This document shows, piece by piece, positions 28,166-40,510 of a DNA stretch of 64,000 bases. The notes beneath the pieces were generated by a model, which saw only the letters and a list, made by a program, of their open reading frames with translations, was not told the DNA's origin and did not search any database. Source of the stretch: an uncultured Bacteroidia bacterium (GTDB lineage: Bacteria; Bacteroidota; Bacteroidia; Bacteroidales; UBA932); NCBI GenBank assembly GCA_902780935.1, contig CACZHP010000007.1:27429-91428 (forward strand), written 5' to 3'. The stretch's first letter is position 1. Each line of letters begins with the position of its first letter. A program made the position numbers and the translations under genes.

Positions 28166-29758
28166 ATGAAAGTTTGCGTTGGTCTTTCAGGAGGAGTTGA
28201 CTCCAGTGTGGCCGCCCTGCTGCTGAAGCGGGAGGGCTACGATGTGTTCGGGATGTTCATGCAGAACTGGCATGACGCTGACGCCACACTCCATGGCGAC
28301 TGCGAGTGGGAGGAAGACCGTTTCGTGGCCGAGTTGGTGGCCCGCAAGATCGGAATCCCCTTTTATTTCGTTGATCTGTCAAAGGAGTACCGCCAGCGGG
28401 TCGTGGACTACATGTTCAATGAATATTCCGCGGGTCGCACCCCGAATCCGGACGTGCTCTGCAACCGTGAGATAAAGTTCGACGCATTTTTCGAGGCAGC
28501 CCGAAGACTGGGCGCCGACATGGTGGCGACAGGCCATTATTGCCGTAGGGCTCCGCTGCTGGACAGCGAGGGGAAACAAGTCATTATCAACGGGTTGCCC
28601 CAGTGGAGAATCCTTGAGGGAACGGACCCTAACAAAGACCAGAGCTATTTCCTTTGCCAGCTCACCCAAGAGCAGCTTGGTAACGCTCTCTTTCCTATCG
28701 GCCACCTCACGAAACCCGAAGTCAGGCAGATAGCCCATATCGCCGACCTACCGTCCGCCGACAAGAAGGACTCCCAGGGAATATGTTTCGTCGGGAAGGT
28801 TGATCTTCCGACTTTCCTTAAGCAGAAGCTGGAGCCGAAAGAGGGCGAAGTGGTCGAGGTTTTCGACGCTTTTTTCGAGGAAAATCAGCACTACAAGTTC
28901 GTCCATGACACTTTGGCCTCATTGCTTGCCGAACCTGGCGAGCCGCTGATGACCGCAGTCTTCGCTTCCGAGGACTCCGGCGGCGCCTCTTTCAATAACC
29001 GCCCGGTCGCTCCGGCGACAAAAGATGTCCCCGCATCCTGTGCTCCGGCGGCAAAAGGCGCCTGGGCTCCCTACGCTTCGCGCCCTAGCCGGGTAAACGT
29101 CCGCCCAGGCGCATTGCCGCCGGAGCAACAAGAGATTTCCGAACCGGTCCCTGAGCGGAGTCGAAGGGCCATTGCCGCCATCTCCCCAAGGAACGTGTTT
29201 GATGCGGGGAAAATGGCAGCCCTGAGCGACGAAGATTGGATAAAGCTGTCGGAACCCGTTGATTATTCGGCGATAAAGTTCGAGACGGAAGTCTATCGCA
29301 GCGGCAAAAAACACATCAAGAAGACCCGCTACAAGGACAACCCCTGGGGCAAGGTTGTTGGCCAGCATGACGGAGCGCAGTTCTACACCATCGGCCAGCG
29401 CAAAGGCCTCAACATCGGCGGCCACAAGGATTCAATATTCGTGATAGCGACTGATGTCAACTCCAACACCATCTACGTCGGGGAAGGTCACAGTCATAAA
29501 GGCCTCTCCCGCAGCTGCATCAGAATCGCTTCCGAAGACATCCACTGGATCCGCCAAGACCTTGAAATGGAAGATGGTGACGTGCGACGCTACCGCGTAA
29601 GGGTCCGCTACCGCCAGCCTCTTCAGGACGCCTGGCTTGTCAAGCGCCCTTCAGGAATATTCATACTCTTCGATACGCCCCAGCGAGGAATATCCGCAGG
29701 CCAGTTTGCCGCCTGGTACTCCGACGACGACGAAATGCTCGGCTCCGGAGTTTATTGA
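28166..29758 (+). CDS. mnmA: tRNA-specific 2-thiouridylase MnmA, enlarged by in-frame repeat insertions
   Basis: A 530-residue protein against about 350-380 usual. It has the PP-loop GLSGGVDSS (6-14), catalytic Cys99 (PDVLCNREIKF) and Cys207 (SQGICFVG), and the C-terminal GAQFYTIGQRKGLNIGG. It transfers sulfur to the wobble uridine of tRNA Lys/Glu/Gln. The extra length lies between about 231 and 395, after KEGEVVEVF and before WGKVVGQHDG. It includes an 85-bp palindromic element translated as residues 293-320 and a second repeat encoding PVPERSRR (327-334). Both catalytic cysteines are intact, so it is probably active. The start is fixed by the promoter. Its TGA directly abuts the stop of the convergent phosphohexomutase. 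Confidence 0.93.
   Translation: MKVCVGLSGGVDSSVAALLLKREGYDVFGMFMQNWHDADATLHGDCEWEEDRFVAELVARKIGIPFYFVDLSKEYRQRVVDYMFNEYSAGRTPNPDVLCNREIKFDAFFEAARRLGADMVATGHYCRRAPLLDSEGKQVIINGLPQWRILEGTDPNKDQSYFLCQLTQEQLGNALFPIGHLTKPEVRQIAHIADLPSADKKDSQGICFVGKVDLPTFLKQKLEPKEGEVVEVFDAFFEENQHYKFVHDTLASLLAEPGEPLMTAVFASEDSGGASFNNRPVAPATKDVPASCAPAAKGAWAPYASRPSRVNVRPGALPPEQQEISEPVPERSRRAIAAISPRNVFDAGKMAALSDEDWIKLSEPVDYSAIKFETEVYRSGKKHIKKTRYKDNPWGKVVGQHDGAQFYTIGQRKGLNIGGHKDSIFVIATDVNSNTIYVGEGHSHKGLSRSCIRIASEDIHWIRQDLEMEDGDVRRYRVRVRYRQPLQDAWLVKRPSGIFILFDTPQRGISAGQFAAWYSDDDEMLGSGVY
29042..29126 (+). repeat. 85-bp palindromic element inside mnmA (copy 1)
   Basis: Outer arms GCTCCGGCGGCAA and TTGCCGCCGGAGC (13 bp, perfect) and inner arms GCGCCTGGGC and GCCCAGGCGC (10 bp) enclose a 35-nt loop. 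It is translated as APAAKGAWAPYASRP and onward. 81 of 85 bases match the copy at 31770-31854. A decayed partial copy of its left arm (three mismatches in 19) lies just upstream at 29009-29027. Confidence 0.9.
29145..29170 (+). repeat. Short REP-like repeat inside mnmA
   Basis: The core GTCCCTGAGCGGAGTCGAAG belongs to a short sequence family I recognise as dispersed in many bacterial genomes (pattern memory, not searched). It has imperfect dyad symmetry and is read in frame as PVPERSRR, 18 bp after the palindromic element. Confidence 0.6.
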
Positions 29759-31432
29759 TTACCCCAGGAACTGCTTCTTGAAGGCTTCGAGTTTGGCCTC
29801 GACGGCAGGAGCGTCGGGTGCGGTGGCGCCGAAATAGAACTTGATCTTGGGCTCAGTGCCAGAAGGACGGACGGTCACGACATCTCCCTGGGCGTCAAAG
29901 TATTGCAGAACATTGGATTTAGGGAGACCGGTCTTCTCGGGTTCGTTGTAGTCGATAACCTTGACGACCGGAGAACCGGCCAGCTCTGTGGCGGGCTTGC
30001 AGCGCATGTCCTCCATGATCTTGGCGATCTCCTCAGCGCCGGACTTGCCCTTGCGGACCAGATAGACCATGCTTTCCTTGCGGTAGCCGAACTCAGCGTA
30101 GATCTTGTCCATAAGCTGGTAGAGAGTCAGGCCCTGATCCGCTGCCCAGGTGGCGCACTCGGCCACCATAGCGCAGGCCACGGGAGCGTCCTTGTCACGG
30201 ACAAACTCGCCCACATTGAACCCGTAGCTTTCCTCGCCGCCGCAGATGAACTCTTTTTTGCCCTCGTTCTTCTTCACAACCTCGCCGATCCACTTGAATC
30301 CGGTCAGCACATCGTAGCACTCCACGCCGAACTTCTTGCAGATGTCGGCGATAAGCTGAGTCGTAACTATGGTCTTAACGCAATATTTGGTTCCGTCCAG
30401 TTTCCCAAGCTCCTTCCAGCGTGTGAGGATATAATATGTCAGCATCGATGCCGTCTGGTTGCCGTTAAACTGGACCATCTTTCCATCGTTGTCACGAACG
30501 GCGATCCCAAGACGGTCAGCGTCAGGATCGGAGGCCATCACGATGTCGGCTCCGACCTCGTCAGCCCTCTCGAGAGCCATCTTCATAGCGGCCGGCTCCT
30601 CCGGATTGGGAGATACGACTGTCGGGAAATCCCCGTCAGAAACATCTTGAGCAGGGACATTGTACACATTCTTGAACCCAAGCCTCTTAAGGCACTCCGG
30701 AATAATCCTGACTCCGCAGCCATGGAGAGGGGTATAGACAATCTTGATGTCATTGTGGCGCTCGCGTGATTCCGGGCTGAGGGTGAGGGAAAGAATATCG
30801 GTCATATATGCCTCATCAACCTTCTTGCCCATAAGCTGGACCTCTCCACAACGCTCCCCACGCTCGAACTTGACCTGGGAAGGCTCCGAGACCTTGCCGA
30901 CCTCGGCAATGATATCCTTATCGACTGGCGGTACTATCTGCGCTCCATCAGACCAGTACACCTTGTAGCCATTATACTCCTTGGGATTATGCGAGGCTGT
31001 CACCATGATACCTGCGACGGCTCCCATGTAACGGATAGCGTAGCTGAGCTCCGGAGTGGGGCGGATATTGTCAAACAGGAACACATTGATACCGTTGGCG
31101 CTGAGGATGTCCGAGGATATCTTGGCGAAAAGCTTGGAATTATTACGGCTGTCATAAGATATGCAGACCCTGATGTCATCGCCTTGAACATGCTTCAGGA
31201 TATAATTGGCGAGTCCCTGGGTGGCCATCCCGACGGTGTATTTGTTCATCCTGTTGGTTCCCACGCCCATAATCCCGCGGAGACCTCCGGTGCCAAATTC
31301 AAGATTCTTGTAGAACGCATCCTCAAAACCTACCGGGTCGGTATTCCTGAGTTCGAGGACTTTCATCTTGGTTTCGGGATCGAAATCCCCGTCGAGCCAC
31401 TTCTGGGCCGCTGCCTTATAATCCTGTGACAT
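29759..31432 (-). CDS. Phosphoglucomutase/phosphomannomutase (alpha-D-phosphohexomutase)
   Basis: A 557-residue protein with the four family motifs. The phosphoserine loop is VTASHNPKEYNG (Ser147) and the metal loop SDPDADRLG. The sugar-recognition segment is CGGEESYG and the C-terminal phosphate-binding loop RPSGTEPKIKFY. It interconverts hexose 1- and 6-phosphates for glycolysis and sugar-nucleotide synthesis; length fits the PGM2/phosphopentomutase-like group. Its stop touches the mnmA stop with no gap. Confidence 0.94.
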   Translation of the reverse strand: MSQDYKAAAQKWLDGDFDPETKMKVLELRNTDPVGFEDAFYKNLEFGTGGLRGIMGVGTNRMNKYTVGMATQGLANYILKHVQGDDIRVCISYDSRNNSKLFAKISSDILSANGINVFLFDNIRPTPELSYAIRYMGAVAGIMVTASHNPKEYNGYKVYWSDGAQIVPPVDKDIIAEVGKVSEPSQVKFERGERCGEVQLMGKKVDEAYMTDILSLTLSPESRERHNDIKIVYTPLHGCGVRIIPECLKRLGFKNVYNVPAQDVSDGDFPTVVSPNPEEPAAMKMALERADEVGADIVMASDPDADRLGIAVRDNDGKMVQFNGNQTASMLTYYILTRWKELGKLDGTKYCVKTIVTTQLIADICKKFGVECYDVLTGFKWIGEVVKKNEGKKEFICGGEESYGFNVGEFVRDKDAPVACAMVAECATWAADQGLTLYQLMDKIYAEFGYRKESMVYLVRKGKSGAEEIAKIMEDMRCKPATELAGSPVVKVIDYNEPEKTGLPKSNVLQYFDAQGDVVTVRPSGTEPKIKFYFGATAPDAPAVEAKLEAFKKQFLG

Positions 31433-31454
31433 ATATAAGAAATCAGTTATTTTT

Positions 31455-31462
31455 CAAATTTA
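31455..31462 (-). promoter_or_regulatory. -7 box TAAATTTG for the phosphohexomutase gene
   Basis: A minus-strand exact TAnnTTTG match, 22 bp before the ATG at 31432. It lies in the 41-bp gap after the methyltransferase gene, suggesting separate transcription. Confidence 0.55.
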
Positions 31463-31473
31463 CAGAAAAAAGT

Positions 31474-32886
31474 TCAAATTCGGTGGCATACGATGAGGAA
31501 ATTGTCGGCCTGGAACGGAGTCTCGATCCTGACCCCGAAGATATGGGCGTCATCTCCAGAACGGACTCCCAGCCTGGCACGTAATTCCGCGCTTGTAAGG
31601 GGAATATTCCTCGCGGACACCTCAGACTTCGGGTAACGCTTCCCCACGTCACGCATCCCCGCCTTGTTCATCCGGACGATCTCCTTTACCTCAAAGATCT
31701 TCCCGAAATTGAACAGATCCTTCGCTTCGCTCAGGATGACAGAGGGTGCGCCAGGAATAACTGAGGGAGGCTCCGGCGGCAATGCGCCTGGGCGGACATT
31801 ATCCCGGATAGGGCGCGAAGCGTAGGGAGCCCAGGCGCCTTTTGCCGCCGGAGCAGGGGAAAAGAGGTTCGTGGAGCGGGCGAGCTTAACAAGGCCGAAA
31901 CGGGAGCAAAGGGCGTTGAAAACCCCAGCCTTGGCAAGAGACTTGCCAGGCTCGAAAACATACTTTAAATCAACGGCTTCCGGAAGAACCGCCTTTGAGG
32001 AACGGATCTCCTCGGAAGAAAAAGACAAAGATCCTCCATCCTCCCGGCAAGTTACGCTATACTCCCCTTTCCAGTCCCGATCCATCCACACCAGCAACTC
32101 CTTACACTCTCCCCCGCTCGCCACGACATGGACCTCCCGGACCCAGTTGCCATTCCACCCTTCAGAACAATCCTCCATAAGCGACGTCTCATAAGACCGG
32201 TTCAATCTCTCAACCACCATGGTCACGTCAGCCATCGGAGACAACTTCAAGAGAATATTCCGGGAATATCGGAAGAGTTCAGGGATAAGGTCGAGCACAT
32301 TAGGCGAGCAGTCTTCCAGAAGGAAGACCTTTCCCCCGGAATTGTCCCTGCGGGCGGGATCCAGGAATATGAGATCGGGTGCGAAACCAGCCAGAAGACT
32401 CCCTAAAGATCCCTTGCCAACCTCACTGTTTTCAACCCGGATATTCCTTACCTCGAGCTCCGCAAAATTATACTTCGCCGCAGAAGCTAAAGAGCTATCC
32501 CTCTCATTGTAAAGGACTTCCGAAGCGACCGACGAGAAGGCCCAGCTGTCAATCCCCAGTCCTCCGGTGAGATCGGCGATCCTGCCAGGGACATTTCCAA
32601 GAATCCGGCCGGCAAGCGCCGTCTTGTAACGGGCGGTTACTGATGAGCTGCACTGCTCGGCGCATAGGGCCGAGGGATATACCAAAGAAGTGAGAGAATA
32701 CCACTCAGGAACCTTGCCCCGAAGCTTCCGACGGGCCTCTATTGTACTGATGGCCAATTCCTTCCCATCAAAAGACGATAAGACGGGATTCGCTGGAGGC
32801 AACGGCCATTCAACACGGGAAAGCAGAAGCCGGGATATCTCGGCTTCCGCATTCCCGACAATGAATCGCTCAAAACTACTCGGCAC
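31474..32886 (-). CDS. THUMP-like / class I SAM-dependent methyltransferase with palindromic insertion
   Basis: A 470-residue protein. The methyltransferase core shows the SAM loop IADLTGGLGIDSWAF and the acidic end VLYNERD. The motif IV-like segment is LIFLDPARRDN, followed by LLKLSPMADV. The C-terminal part (GKIFEVKEIVRMN, SARNIPLTSAELRARLGV) is the THUMP-like domain of this Bacteroidota family, presumably acting on RNA. Between NLFSP and FNFGKIF lies a low-complexity insertion. It holds an 85-bp palindromic element (residues 345-372) and a second repeat encoding SVILSEAKDL. The start overlaps the upstream S9 peptidase by 11 bp. Substrate unknown. Confidence 0.83.
   Translation of the reverse strand: MPSSFERFIVGNAEAEISRLLLSRVEWPLPPANPVLSSFDGKELAISTIEARRKLRGKVPEWYSLTSLVYPSALCAEQCSSSVTARYKTALAGRILGNVPGRIADLTGGLGIDSWAFSSVASEVLYNERDSSLASAAKYNFAELEVRNIRVENSEVGKGSLGSLLAGFAPDLIFLDPARRDNSGGKVFLLEDCSPNVLDLIPELFRYSRNILLKLSPMADVTMVVERLNRSYETSLMEDCSEGWNGNWVREVHVVASGGECKELLVWMDRDWKGEYSVTCREDGGSLSFSSEEIRSSKAVLPEAVDLKYVFEPGKSLAKAGVFNALCSRFGLVKLARSTNLFSPAPAAKGAWAPYASRPIRDNVRPGALPPEPPSVIPGAPSVILSEAKDLFNFGKIFEVKEIVRMNKAGMRDVGKRYPKSEVSARNIPLTSAELRARLGVRSGDDAHIFGVRIETPFQADNFLIVCHRI
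31715..31740 (-). repeat. Short REP-like repeat inside the methyltransferase gene
   Basis: On the minus strand it carries GTCATCCTGAGCGAAGCGAA and continues GGATCT, read in frame as VILSEAKDL. It has dyad symmetry (TTCGCTTCGC) and belongs to the same sequence class as the repeat at 60509-60537 (GTCATTCTGAGCG...GAAGAATCT). Confidence 0.65.
31770..31854 (-). repeat. 85-bp palindromic element inside the methyltransferase gene (copy 2)
   Basis: Same length, arms and internal sequence as the mnmA copy, with four substitutions, all inside the loop; the arms are identical. It is inserted in the same orientation relative to the gene and the same reading frame, giving APAAKGAWAPYASRPIRDN. Confidence 0.9.
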
Positions 32887-38860: not shown

Positions 38861-40510
38861 TTATCGGTACACTCCGAGTATAGTTCCGTAATCCCGGAGG
38901 CATTCCCCGTCGGGGAAAACGCTGAAATAAGTCGAGTCCATGTAAACGGCGAAGGAGGTGACATTGCCGAGCCCCCGGCTCTTATAGACCTCCAGATCCT
39001 GGATGAACACGTCCGGATGCCAAGGCAACTCCACAGCCGGTTTCTTCCAGTCACTCGCGAGAGAAACATCCAGCCAATATTCAAGGACGACAGCCGTCTC
39101 GGCGGGGAATACCTTGAGATTGGCATCCAGCAGCCGAATTACCTCCTTATGGGACATCCTGCCTTTCCGCCCCGGCGCGTCAAGGTCAGACAACGGACGG
39201 TCCCATTGTCTCTCGATCGGCGCGAATTCCAGGAATATTCCTTCAGACGGCTTGACTTTGACAGGAGGCTCCATGGTCTTCTGATATGCCAGGTGTGCGA
39301 GAGTAGCCTCCGGATCGACCTTCCTTATCTCCTCAAGCATCTTGTTCTCGATGATCAGCGCCTGCTCACTCGCTGAATACTCTTTGCAGAGAGGGCAGAA
39401 ACATGGCTCCGAGTTGTCGTCCAGCCAGAAGTAGTAGCGGTGGTTGGTAGCGGGAAGGGAACGGACATATTCAGCGGCTTTTCCTGAAATGGTCTCCAAC
39501 GCCTTGCCGGAATGGGCACAGCAATTGAAGTCAGCGACCCGCCTCCCATTCCTGTCCATCCTGAACATGGTGGAATCCTCGTCAAAGAGAGACCTGGGAA
39601 GCAGGTCGCCCATCGCATGAAGTTGGTGCTCGACATCAATTCCAAGTCGGGAGCACTCGGCAGCGAAGTGCCGTCCTTTCTCCGTCCGCATGAAACCCAG
39701 CACCTGGGACGGCGTGATATGGGTTCCTAATGTATTGATTCCGTTTAATTTGGCTATAGCTGGCCATGGGGCGGTCTCCAGGTCTTCTACAGACAGGACA
39801 GCTCCCTTCATCCTGAAAAAGGGCTTCTTGTCAGCCCTTGCCATGAAAAAGACCTTGGGCTGGTGGAAGTCCGCATGCTTGTCGTCCGTGGACTTCAACG
39901 AATACCAGTTTACACTGCCGTCCGGACGGAAATCTGCCCTGAAGGCTCCCATCAGGAAACCCTTTTCCATATCGACTCCGAAACCGGACAATTCCTCCAG
40001 GGTCACGCTCCCGGCGATTGAATATCCGCCCTGACGGATCTCGTGGCAATACTCCAAAGTAGTGAAATTCCACTCATAATTGAACTTGCGGTAGAACTCG
40101 CAGGAGTAGTCCAGCACGCGCCCGGCAGGATCCATCTCCGCGCCGATATAGGTGTCAAGATCACCCTCATGGGAGAAGAAAACCTCAGCCCTGTCCTCAT
40201 ATTCCACATCCTTCTCGGTCCGGAAATCGCCTTCCAAGGCCAGAGTGGAGTCTATGACGTCGAACCGGAACAGGAAAAGGCTGTCGGTGACCATGCACTT
40301 GAACACCGTCTCATCGTCCAAGCCGTCCCAGGGAGCATGGAAACCCACGACCGGAGGAATGGCATCCCACACAGCCGCGGTCAAAAGGCTCTCTTGGGAA
40401 GGCGCAACCGGTGAATACGGGATCAAGAACACATCCCCGTCCTTCCTGGAGCACGACAGGAAGAGGACGAGTGCCATCAAAAGACTTAATATGTCACGAA
40501 AACATCTCAT
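38861..40510 (-). CDS. Lipoprotein with CBM9-like N-terminus and DUF4838 domain
   Basis: A 549-residue protein with a lipobox (LFLSC). Residues 40-215 resemble a family 9-like carbohydrate-binding fold (WDAIPPVVGFHAPWDG, DRAEVFFSHEGD). The remainder (YYFWLDDNSEPCFCPLCKEYS, ENKMLEEIRKVDPEATLAHLAYQ) matches DUF4838, found beside glycan-degrading enzymes. It probably works at the cell surface on host or plant glycans. It overlaps the AGE-family epimerase gene by 4 bp, pointing to a joint role in amino-sugar use. Confidence 0.8.
   Translation of the reverse strand: MRCFRDILSLLMALVLFLSCSRKDGDVFLIPYSPVAPSQESLLTAAVWDAIPPVVGFHAPWDGLDDETVFKCMVTDSLFLFRFDVIDSTLALEGDFRTEKDVEYEDRAEVFFSHEGDLDTYIGAEMDPAGRVLDYSCEFYRKFNYEWNFTTLEYCHEIRQGGYSIAGSVTLEELSGFGVDMEKGFLMGAFRADFRPDGSVNWYSLKSTDDKHADFHQPKVFFMARADKKPFFRMKGAVLSVEDLETAPWPAIAKLNGINTLGTHITPSQVLGFMRTEKGRHFAAECSRLGIDVEHQLHAMGDLLPRSLFDEDSTMFRMDRNGRRVADFNCCAHSGKALETISGKAAEYVRSLPATNHRYYFWLDDNSEPCFCPLCKEYSASEQALIIENKMLEEIRKVDPEATLAHLAYQKTMEPPVKVKPSEGIFLEFAPIERQWDRPLSDLDAPGRKGRMSHKEVIRLLDANLKVFPAETAVVLEYWLDVSLASDWKKPAVELPWHPDVFIQDLEVYKSRGLGNVTSFAVYMDSTYFSVFPDGECLRDYGTILGVYR

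Follow-up and report, generated by a model that had tools for sequence, protein, structure and literature searches.

The window examined here is a 64,000-nucleotide stretch of contig CACZHP010000007.1 (positions 27,429 to 91,428, forward strand; assembly GCA_902780935.1) from an uncultured bacterium of the Bacteroidales. Two of its genes, mnmA and a gene for a THUMP-like methyltransferase, each contain a copy of an 85-bp palindromic element. We found that these copies belong to a family with a constant hairpin tip and arms that are matched within each copy. The family may be a non-autonomous DNA hairpin element dispersed through the genomes of one large Bacteroidales genus; this explanation, template switching and incidental translation included, has in our estimate an even chance of being right. 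The genes and features at the two sites are as follows, in window coordinates.

28166..29758, + strand: host gene mnmA
29042..29126, + strand: element copy 1 (type I), in frame in mnmA (covariance-model match G000:C7:56471-56554, 70.5 bits)
29042..29066, + strand: left arm of copy 1 from the fold, with an outer 13 bp (GCTCCGGCGGCAA), an unpaired AAG and the inner arm
29067..29104, + strand: conserved 38-nt core (tip) of copy 1, a diverged copy (TAGCC, AAACG)
29074..29082, + strand: core hairpin H1 of copy 1, CGC-TTC-GCG (the opposite strand includes GCGAAGC); the equivalent stem covaries in related species
29083..29093, + strand: predicted core hairpin H2 of copy 1, CCC-TAGCC-GGG; stem bases invariant in 43 aligned copies
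29105..29126, + strand: right arm of copy 1 from the fold
29009..29027, + strand: left-arm-like fragment without a core
31474..32886, - strand: host gene, THUMP-like methyltransferase
31770..31854, - strand: element copy 2 (type I), in frame in the THUMP-like methyltransferase gene (covariance-model match G000:C7:59198-59281, 72.5 bits)
31792..31829, - strand: conserved 38-nt core of copy 2

A first-pass annotation of this DNA had described two 85-bp copies that agree at 81 of 85 bases, with all four differences in the loop, and that lie in the same frame within their genes. Recomparison confirmed the identity and the position of the differences, and the frame and in-gene location held for both mnmA and the methyltransferase gene. 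The predicted hairpin with arms of 13 bp plus 10 bp was also recovered by folding: both copies form it at about -56 kcal/mol (z -6.25 and -6.74), and none of 200 shuffles matched this. Both are translated in the same frame, as ...APAAKGAWAPYASRP..., between the Pfam HUP and PRC-barrel domains in MnmA and between the PG_1098_Fer and Thump_like domains in the methyltransferase. The sequence at 29009-29027 had been reported as a decayed third fragment. It does match the left arm (16 of 19 bases, counted by eye), but it is a single arm and not a third copy, and it is missing from the mnmA of L114 and L130. In genome G017, the closest by MnmA among 24 congeners searched (90% over the first part), both genes are without the element, and the mnmA site holds a different short repeat, VVLNEAKDPAT, resembling the family B repeat described below.

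The element is not confined to the window, a result on which the first-pass annotation had made its reading depend. With the 85-bp sequence as query we found 13 matches in the source genome. A 22-base core pattern (at most 3 mismatches) gave 16 copies there, and a reversed control pattern gave none; a covariance model also gave 16, with 15 places common to both searches. A de novo hairpin finder run on 440 kb recovered only one copy, because bulges in the stem defeat it. In named genomes the core pattern was present in 101 stretches from 12 other Bacteroidales assemblies, several of them labelled as rumen, omasum or abomasum samples; all 101 were titled Bacteroidales or Bacteroidia, and none Rickettsia. 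Within the genus, the pattern with one mismatch was found in 18 of 400 genomes (source genome included) at 1 to 38 copies each, the eight best-stocked holding 12 to 38 by this one pattern. The covariance model matched 49 of 200 genomes of the genus, again with the source genome included; its copy counts per genome come from the best 22 candidates at most and are read as "at least". A search of 198 genomes from the order for the type I pattern, two mismatches allowed, hit one genome, the source genome itself. A second type of the element, type II, was searched for across the genus.

For closer study 118 copies were collected with search patterns in which most of 22 core bases are fixed, and the fair measure of conservation is therefore given by the other 16. 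Two of these copies, L008 and L007, lie in opposite orientation in one gene of the source genome that we read as DsbD (contig C6, 38150-38188 on the + strand and 39211-39249 on the - strand).

The common core of about 38 nt reads CTCSCTRCGCTTCGCGCCCTATCCGGGTAAATG followed by TCCGC, GTCG or CTCG. The arms vary from copy to copy, and those of the 101 stretches in named genomes are equally varied. Using 114 of the 118 copies (complete arms, duplicates removed), we found a loop identity of 0.91, a value partly fixed by the search pattern, and a mean identity of 0.39 for the 22 left-arm bases beside the loop. Each left arm paired with its own right arm at a score of 16.5, compared with 6.8 for the right arms of other copies. 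The own right arm was the best of all 114 in 71 copies, and six copies scored below 10. We also aligned 43 of 97 copies picked for diversity with a pairing score of at least 14, so that percentages from this alignment lean towards pairing. No column outside 23-63 (of 86) was conserved to 90%, arms and feet being site-specific. Two-sided arm changes filled 274 cells, compared with 106 in shuffles and 70-114 with the partners slid along. The first-pass annotation had taken the arms as the constant part, which was not supported; arm sharing between the two window copies is an exception within the family.

The core bases outside the pattern are also conserved. In an analysis of 116 copies the 16 bases were identical at 0.91 between copies at shared sites and at 0.82 between other copies. 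For the 11 that do not define core subtypes these values were 0.97 and 0.96.

The tip has a defined structure. At the base of the type I tip, under the arms, we found a near-invariant C-G pair (39 of the 43 aligned copies), then a T-C/T-C internal loop in which one mismatch is kept in 41 copies and the other in 32. The next pair, 28-58, covaries (CG in 18, GC in 16, CT in 9) and is followed by a C-G pair in 42 of 43. Above these pairs are the two small hairpins H1 and H2 plus an AAAT stretch. Neither stem varies in type I, where both lie within the search pattern. Type II, found by the covariance model in other congeners, has H1 extended to five pairs, GTCGC...GCGAC or GTTGC...GCAAC. The varying pair is C-G in 31 and T-A in 8 of 39 copies, with no mismatch. 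These 39 come from 40 type II-like copies, taken from the top of the match list of a model with a paired H1 built in, after a single copy that departs from the H1 pattern is set aside; the outer pair is A-C in one of them. Because the type II stem covaries, H1 is well supported. The stem bases of H2 are invariant and inside the search pattern, and this hairpin is a prediction. Type II arms are likewise free and matched (18.1 for own arms, 7.0 across copies). Overall, the core measures about 38-41 nt and the arms about 20-25 bp.

Type II copies from one genome can match one another. In G019 all 8 of 8 share the 39 bases shown, and G196 has two kinds. Within-genome homogenisation may therefore occur in type II, of which few genomes have been seen. 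For type I, homogenisation of the core by gene conversion was not supported, as the core subtype follows the site and not the genome. Two further ideas about the core were dropped. The GCGAAGC mini-hairpin on the strand opposite H1 is unusually stable, but it is not enriched in 440 kb of the source genome (84 seen, 72 expected). Type II loops of G019 and G157 lack stops in all six frames, as do 16% and 11% of the respective shuffles; the openness is thus not significant and gives no support to a stop-free loop as an adaptation.

The element does not avoid genes. In the 91 of 118 copies with 700 bp of flank, 73 lie within open reading frames (ORFs) of at least 200 codons, compared with 690 of 910 random windows from the same loci. 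The core is read in these ORFs in frames +1 (26 copies), +0 (17), -2 (15), -1 (14) and -0 (1). Frame +2, which would meet a TAA, is empty, and in the lone -0 copy (L093) CTGTCC replaces CTATCC and so removes a TAG. The first-pass annotation had proposed that one peptide in one frame is added; we found that none is favoured, with both strands and four stop-free frames in use. The shared frame of the two window copies is thus a coincidence or reflects common descent of their subfamily. In-frame reading is real but incidental, and given the use of four frames on both strands we rejected a function at the peptide level. MnmA here and, judging from the sequences, putative UppP, ABC-F ATPase, DsbD and other proteins carry hairpin-derived segments at tolerant positions.

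Orientation within ORFs shows a weak strand bias (43 and 30), GC skew is neutral (56 of 118 positive), and G-T cells in the inner helix are scarce (17 of 602). Together with the four frames, these observations argue that the element acts at the level of DNA rather than RNA or protein. A structured RNA, a riboregulator or ribozyme acting in transcripts, would account for the covariation in the stems and for a core that is multi-branched and conserved, features of many structured RNAs. However, the presence of both orientations in genes, inversion at the same site (below) and the scarcity of G-T pairs led us to set an RNA function aside. Consistent with this, the one Rfam match that cmscan gave for window positions 28800-32100 was below threshold (E 0.64; 20.9 bits, where the gathering score is 142). 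We regard the RNA explanation as very improbable.

Eight sites of the source genome were searched in ten congeners using joined protein flanks, and 60 segments were read at seven of the sites. By comparison of flanks, the same gene position is occupied in several species. What is found there varies by species: an intact core in either orientation, a decayed core with arms, loopless palindromes, other repeats, or nothing. The core has decayed along with the arms in the EttA site of G017 and G400, the DsbD site of G162 and the UppP site of G202. Palindromes with little or no loop lie in the EttA site of G414 and the UppP site of G162. The former, L260, is a loopless palindrome with one mismatch, GCGTTAGGGGTGATGTCGACATCACCCCTGACGC, in an EttA-like gene where relatives hold the element.

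We then compared copies that share a site, using 100 of the 118. Site pairs numbered 44 with the loop in the same orientation and 40 with it inverted, over 28 sites of which 16 had an inverted pair; a 45th same-orientation pair, made of two neighbouring copies at one locus, was left out of the 44. Inversion was seen at flank identity as high as 94% (L084/L135). In 34 same-orientation pairs with arm identity of at least 0.7, 37 arm pairs had changed on both sides and were still paired, 33 had changed on one side (27 broken, 6 G-T), 8 had changed on both sides without giving a Watson-Crick pair, and 537 were unchanged; with the dropped pair these counts become 39, 41, 8 and 544. For 30 of the 40 inverted pairs we asked which frame the arms follow. 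They fitted the frame of the loop in 21, that of the gene in 8, and one was a tie, with means of 24.1 in the loop's frame, 21.3 in the gene's frame and 13.3 for unrelated copies. On inversion, then, the whole hairpin mostly turns.

Core subtype tracks the site and not the genome, inverted pairs included. At position 4, agreement was 0.86 and 0.80 at shared sites, compared with 0.57 within the same genome. This argues for vertical inheritance. Arm identity at shared sites was 0.80 in the same orientation and 0.71 when inverted, and the flanks of same-orientation pairs average 84%. The first-pass annotation had looked to alignments with orthologues for insertion borders and target duplications. 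Neither could be cleanly delimited, since each site has its own arms and most of the shared sites read hold a copy or have undergone decay or rearrangement.

These data bear on two alternatives. The copies might be neutral relics, old insertions with a functionless core in which template switching does no more than repair the arms. That process by itself gives paired arms and inversion; the decayed cores at the EttA, DsbD and UppP sites (G017, G400, G162 and G202) would fit. Against this, the 11 core positions are identical at 0.97 where arms are at 0.80 and 0.71 and the flanks of same-orientation pairs average 84%, and we think it improbable that all copies are relics. Alternatively, the element could be a chromosomal site with a hairpin fold, bound by an organising, segregation or repair protein and under selection at each place, its mobility being only historical. 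Retention of the core at inherited sites, whatever its orientation or open frame, fits such a role, and so do the 12 to 38 copies counted in each of the eight genomes richest in the element. Against it speak the patchy occurrence (49 of 200 genomes), relatives in which a shared site has lost its copy or holds a decayed one, and the lack of strand bias with GC skew, and we consider this explanation doubtful, with only a small share of our belief.

Some copies share part of their arms. Fifteen copies, both window copies included, have inner arms GGCAAAAGGCGCCTGGG / CCCAGGCGCATTGCC with at most 2 mismatches; some of the fifteen occupy a common site. Their outer arms differ by site, as in the outer part of the copy 1 left arm, and yet pair at 7.3 of 9 positions, compared with 4.9 across copies (0 of 20,000 permutations). 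The inner arms were thus carried along as this subfamily spread, after which every copy acquired or retained an outer stem of its own. Shared inner arms beneath site-specific, pairing outer arms would follow from template-switch copying of flanking sequence; insertion into existing hairpins would give the same result.

Three copies (L120, L141 and L163) are flanked by two convergent ORFs whose stops are 1 to 28 bases away, and their arms are A-rich and T-rich as in bidirectional terminators. Relatives have other terminators at these sites. At the L120 site G292, G162 and G400 have the core with other arms, and some relatives have no core. It appears from this that the element is able to act as a terminator hairpin, whichever of the two arose first. 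At the L163 site, the flanks of L308 (G414) and L324 (G106) are 97% identical between convergent genes, and the entire intergenic terminator differs between the two species.

If only the tip of about 38 nt were mobile, inserting at the apex of pre-existing hairpins such as terminators or older repeats, one would expect tips on terminator-like hairpins, near-loopless palindromes at shared sites (EttA in G414, UppP in G162) and shared inner arms with site-specific outer arms, all of which were observed. However, relatives at the three terminator sites have different terminators rather than the same arms minus the tip, arms and loop mostly move jointly on inversion, and core subtype follows the site. 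We therefore see little likelihood in a mobile tip alone.

We searched for a factor that could mobilise the element, including the REP-associated (RAYT) transposase proposed in the first-pass annotation. Y1 transposase matches were found in 12 of 14 genomes tested. These comprised all 9 with element copies and 3 of the 5 without covariance-model copies (G017, G016 and G023, the G016 match being below the Pfam cut-off). We read 10 Y1 loci with about 1.5 kb of flank, less where one met a contig end, and a 10-kb stretch that includes an eleventh; none contained a type I loop (at most 3 mismatches). A RAYT link was thus searched for and not established.

These results bear on whether the element is an ordinary repeat of the Rickettsia palindromic element (RPE) or repetitive extragenic palindromic (REP)/RAYT kind, a selfish palindrome moved by a Y1 transposase and now seen in Bacteroidales. 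RPEs are palindromic repeats of about 150 bp that lie in frame in unrelated genes and are translated (PMC10969869, PMC3733652). Our element resembles them in being a dispersed palindrome inserted in frame, mostly in long ORFs and in stop-free frames, and this much of the RPE likeness drawn in the first-pass annotation stands; its parts concerning arms, frame and RAYT were not supported. Copies of an RPE family are alike along their whole length, arms included. In contrast, the arms of our element are free in sequence and its tip is fixed, reading occurs in both orientations and uses four frames, and the element comes from another phylum. REPs and REPtrons (RAYT, TnpA-REP) are likewise dispersed DNA palindromes, and PMC8266576 describes recognition by REP transposases of bulges in the stem and loops of folded DNA. 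The element differs in having no conserved tetranucleotide (GTAG or variant) beside its foot and no conserved arms, and in its rate of intragenic copies, which equals that of random windows, where REPs are mostly extragenic. No linked RAYT was found at the loci read. The presence of Y1 matches in all 9 element-bearing genomes favours the RPE/REP explanation; Y1 matches in genomes without model copies, the Y1 loci without a type I loop, and the absence of any column conserved to 90% outside 23-63 make it unlikely in our view.

Template switching between hairpin arms homogenises the arms, produces paired changes, extends stems and inverts the spacer (PMC8604942, PMC8794818). It therefore explains the arms and the inversion of our element without selection. 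It is a mutational process and not an element, however, and it does not explain the conserved core, which would be accounted for most simply by adding a factor able to recognise the tip in its folded form. On the explanation we prefer, and over which we are evenly divided between belief and doubt, the element is a non-autonomous DNA hairpin read through its structured tip, with arms rewritten and loops flipped by template switching and translation as an incidental matter. The core, folded in single-stranded or cruciform DNA, would be the target of a putative trans-acting factor, a transposase or another DNA-binding protein, through which the element may have moved. Selection would preserve the core, and the arms would merely hold the tip up. 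Template switching during replication would keep the arms complementary, extend them into host sequence and flip the whole hairpin. Translation into the host protein would be a tolerated by-product, with insertions that break the frame or bring a stop being lost.

Several observations count against this explanation. Of the core bases, 22 are set by the search pattern and only 16 measure conservation; the 84 site pairs at 28 sites are not independent; eight two-sided arm changes do not form Watson-Crick pairs; and the arms of 8 of the 30 inverted pairs fit the gene's frame better. We found no clean recent insertion with an empty site, the L163 site being the nearest case. No transposase, integrase or other factor was linked to the element at the Y1 loci read (no integrase search was made), and Y1 transposases also occur in some genomes without model matches. 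A longer relative with a split loop, as expected of an autonomous parent, was absent from 1.2 Mb, where one right half and one left half were the only partial cases. Viral contigs held no copy of type I or type II by two exact patterns. Young age of all copies would also keep the cores alike, although inherited arms and subtypes argue otherwise.

A stronger form of the explanation is possible, though we think it rather less likely to be right than wrong. The family would be a structure-addressed element of an undescribed kind: a fixed three-way-junction tip on private stems, with arms written from host DNA by template switching and free flipping, the tip being read by a cell factor in either orientation and so kept at inherited sites.

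Other known systems differ in which part is conserved. The repetitive hairpin elements (RHE) of sponge mitochondria and organelle double-hairpin elements are dispersed hairpins thought to be mobile, and as described in PMC2800124 the stems of RHE are conserved and the loops vary, the reverse of what we found. Our alignment of 43 copies showed no conserved feet. Integron attC sites, in contrast, are used by an integrase with conserved simple sites at the feet of the folded strand. Miniature inverted-repeat transposable elements (MITEs) have terminal inverted repeats that are fixed sequences recognised by a transposase, whereas the arms of our element vary freely and form no fixed terminal inverted repeats. 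MITEs are similar in being short and non-autonomous, with inverted repeats and possible in-frame fusion (PMC10969869). Searches of an open-access library turned up no account of a family like ours in Bacteroidales, and our claim of novelty is limited to that. We rate the element as a new form among intragenic palindromic repeats, and see a real chance that it is a separate kind.

If the reading of the element given here is right, there is a repeat family whose similarity is confined to the hairpin tip, which ordinary repeat finders see as many unrelated palindromes. It would also provide more than 100 natural replicates for measuring template switching, arm compensation and loop inversion inside coding genes, and what reads the tip would become a directly testable question. 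The hairpin-derived protein segments matter for the annotation of metagenome-assembled genomes from the rumen.

Both host genes in the window also carry short repeats of other families, in frame.

29149..29168, + strand: short REP-like repeat, family C (CCCTGAGCGGAGTCGAAGGG), in mnmA
31716..31740, - strand: short REP-like repeat, family B (GTCATCCTGAGCGAAGCGAAGGATC, peptide SEAKDL), in the THUMP-like methyltransferase gene

Families B and C have 21 and 28 exact-loop copies in 1.2 Mb. We considered them as members of the element's class and rejected this, as they are short REP-like repeats with arms of 3-4 bp and few covarying types. At a site in a PhnP-like gene, L238-L243 (G178, G292, G162, G400, G106 and G414) have CCACCCTCGG or GGGTGGCA-like repeats and GAGCGAAGCGA repeats, which fill or adjoin the protein position that holds the element in the source genome. 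On contigs C5, C6, C7 and C8 of the source genome (L185-L204 and the window), AACAAGGATTAAGAC occurs 19 times and by its look is a candidate CRISPR array repeat. Two further repeat families on contigs C5-C8 are CCCCACATGTCCCTC (15 occurrences) and CCGGACACATGGCGC (10 occurrences).

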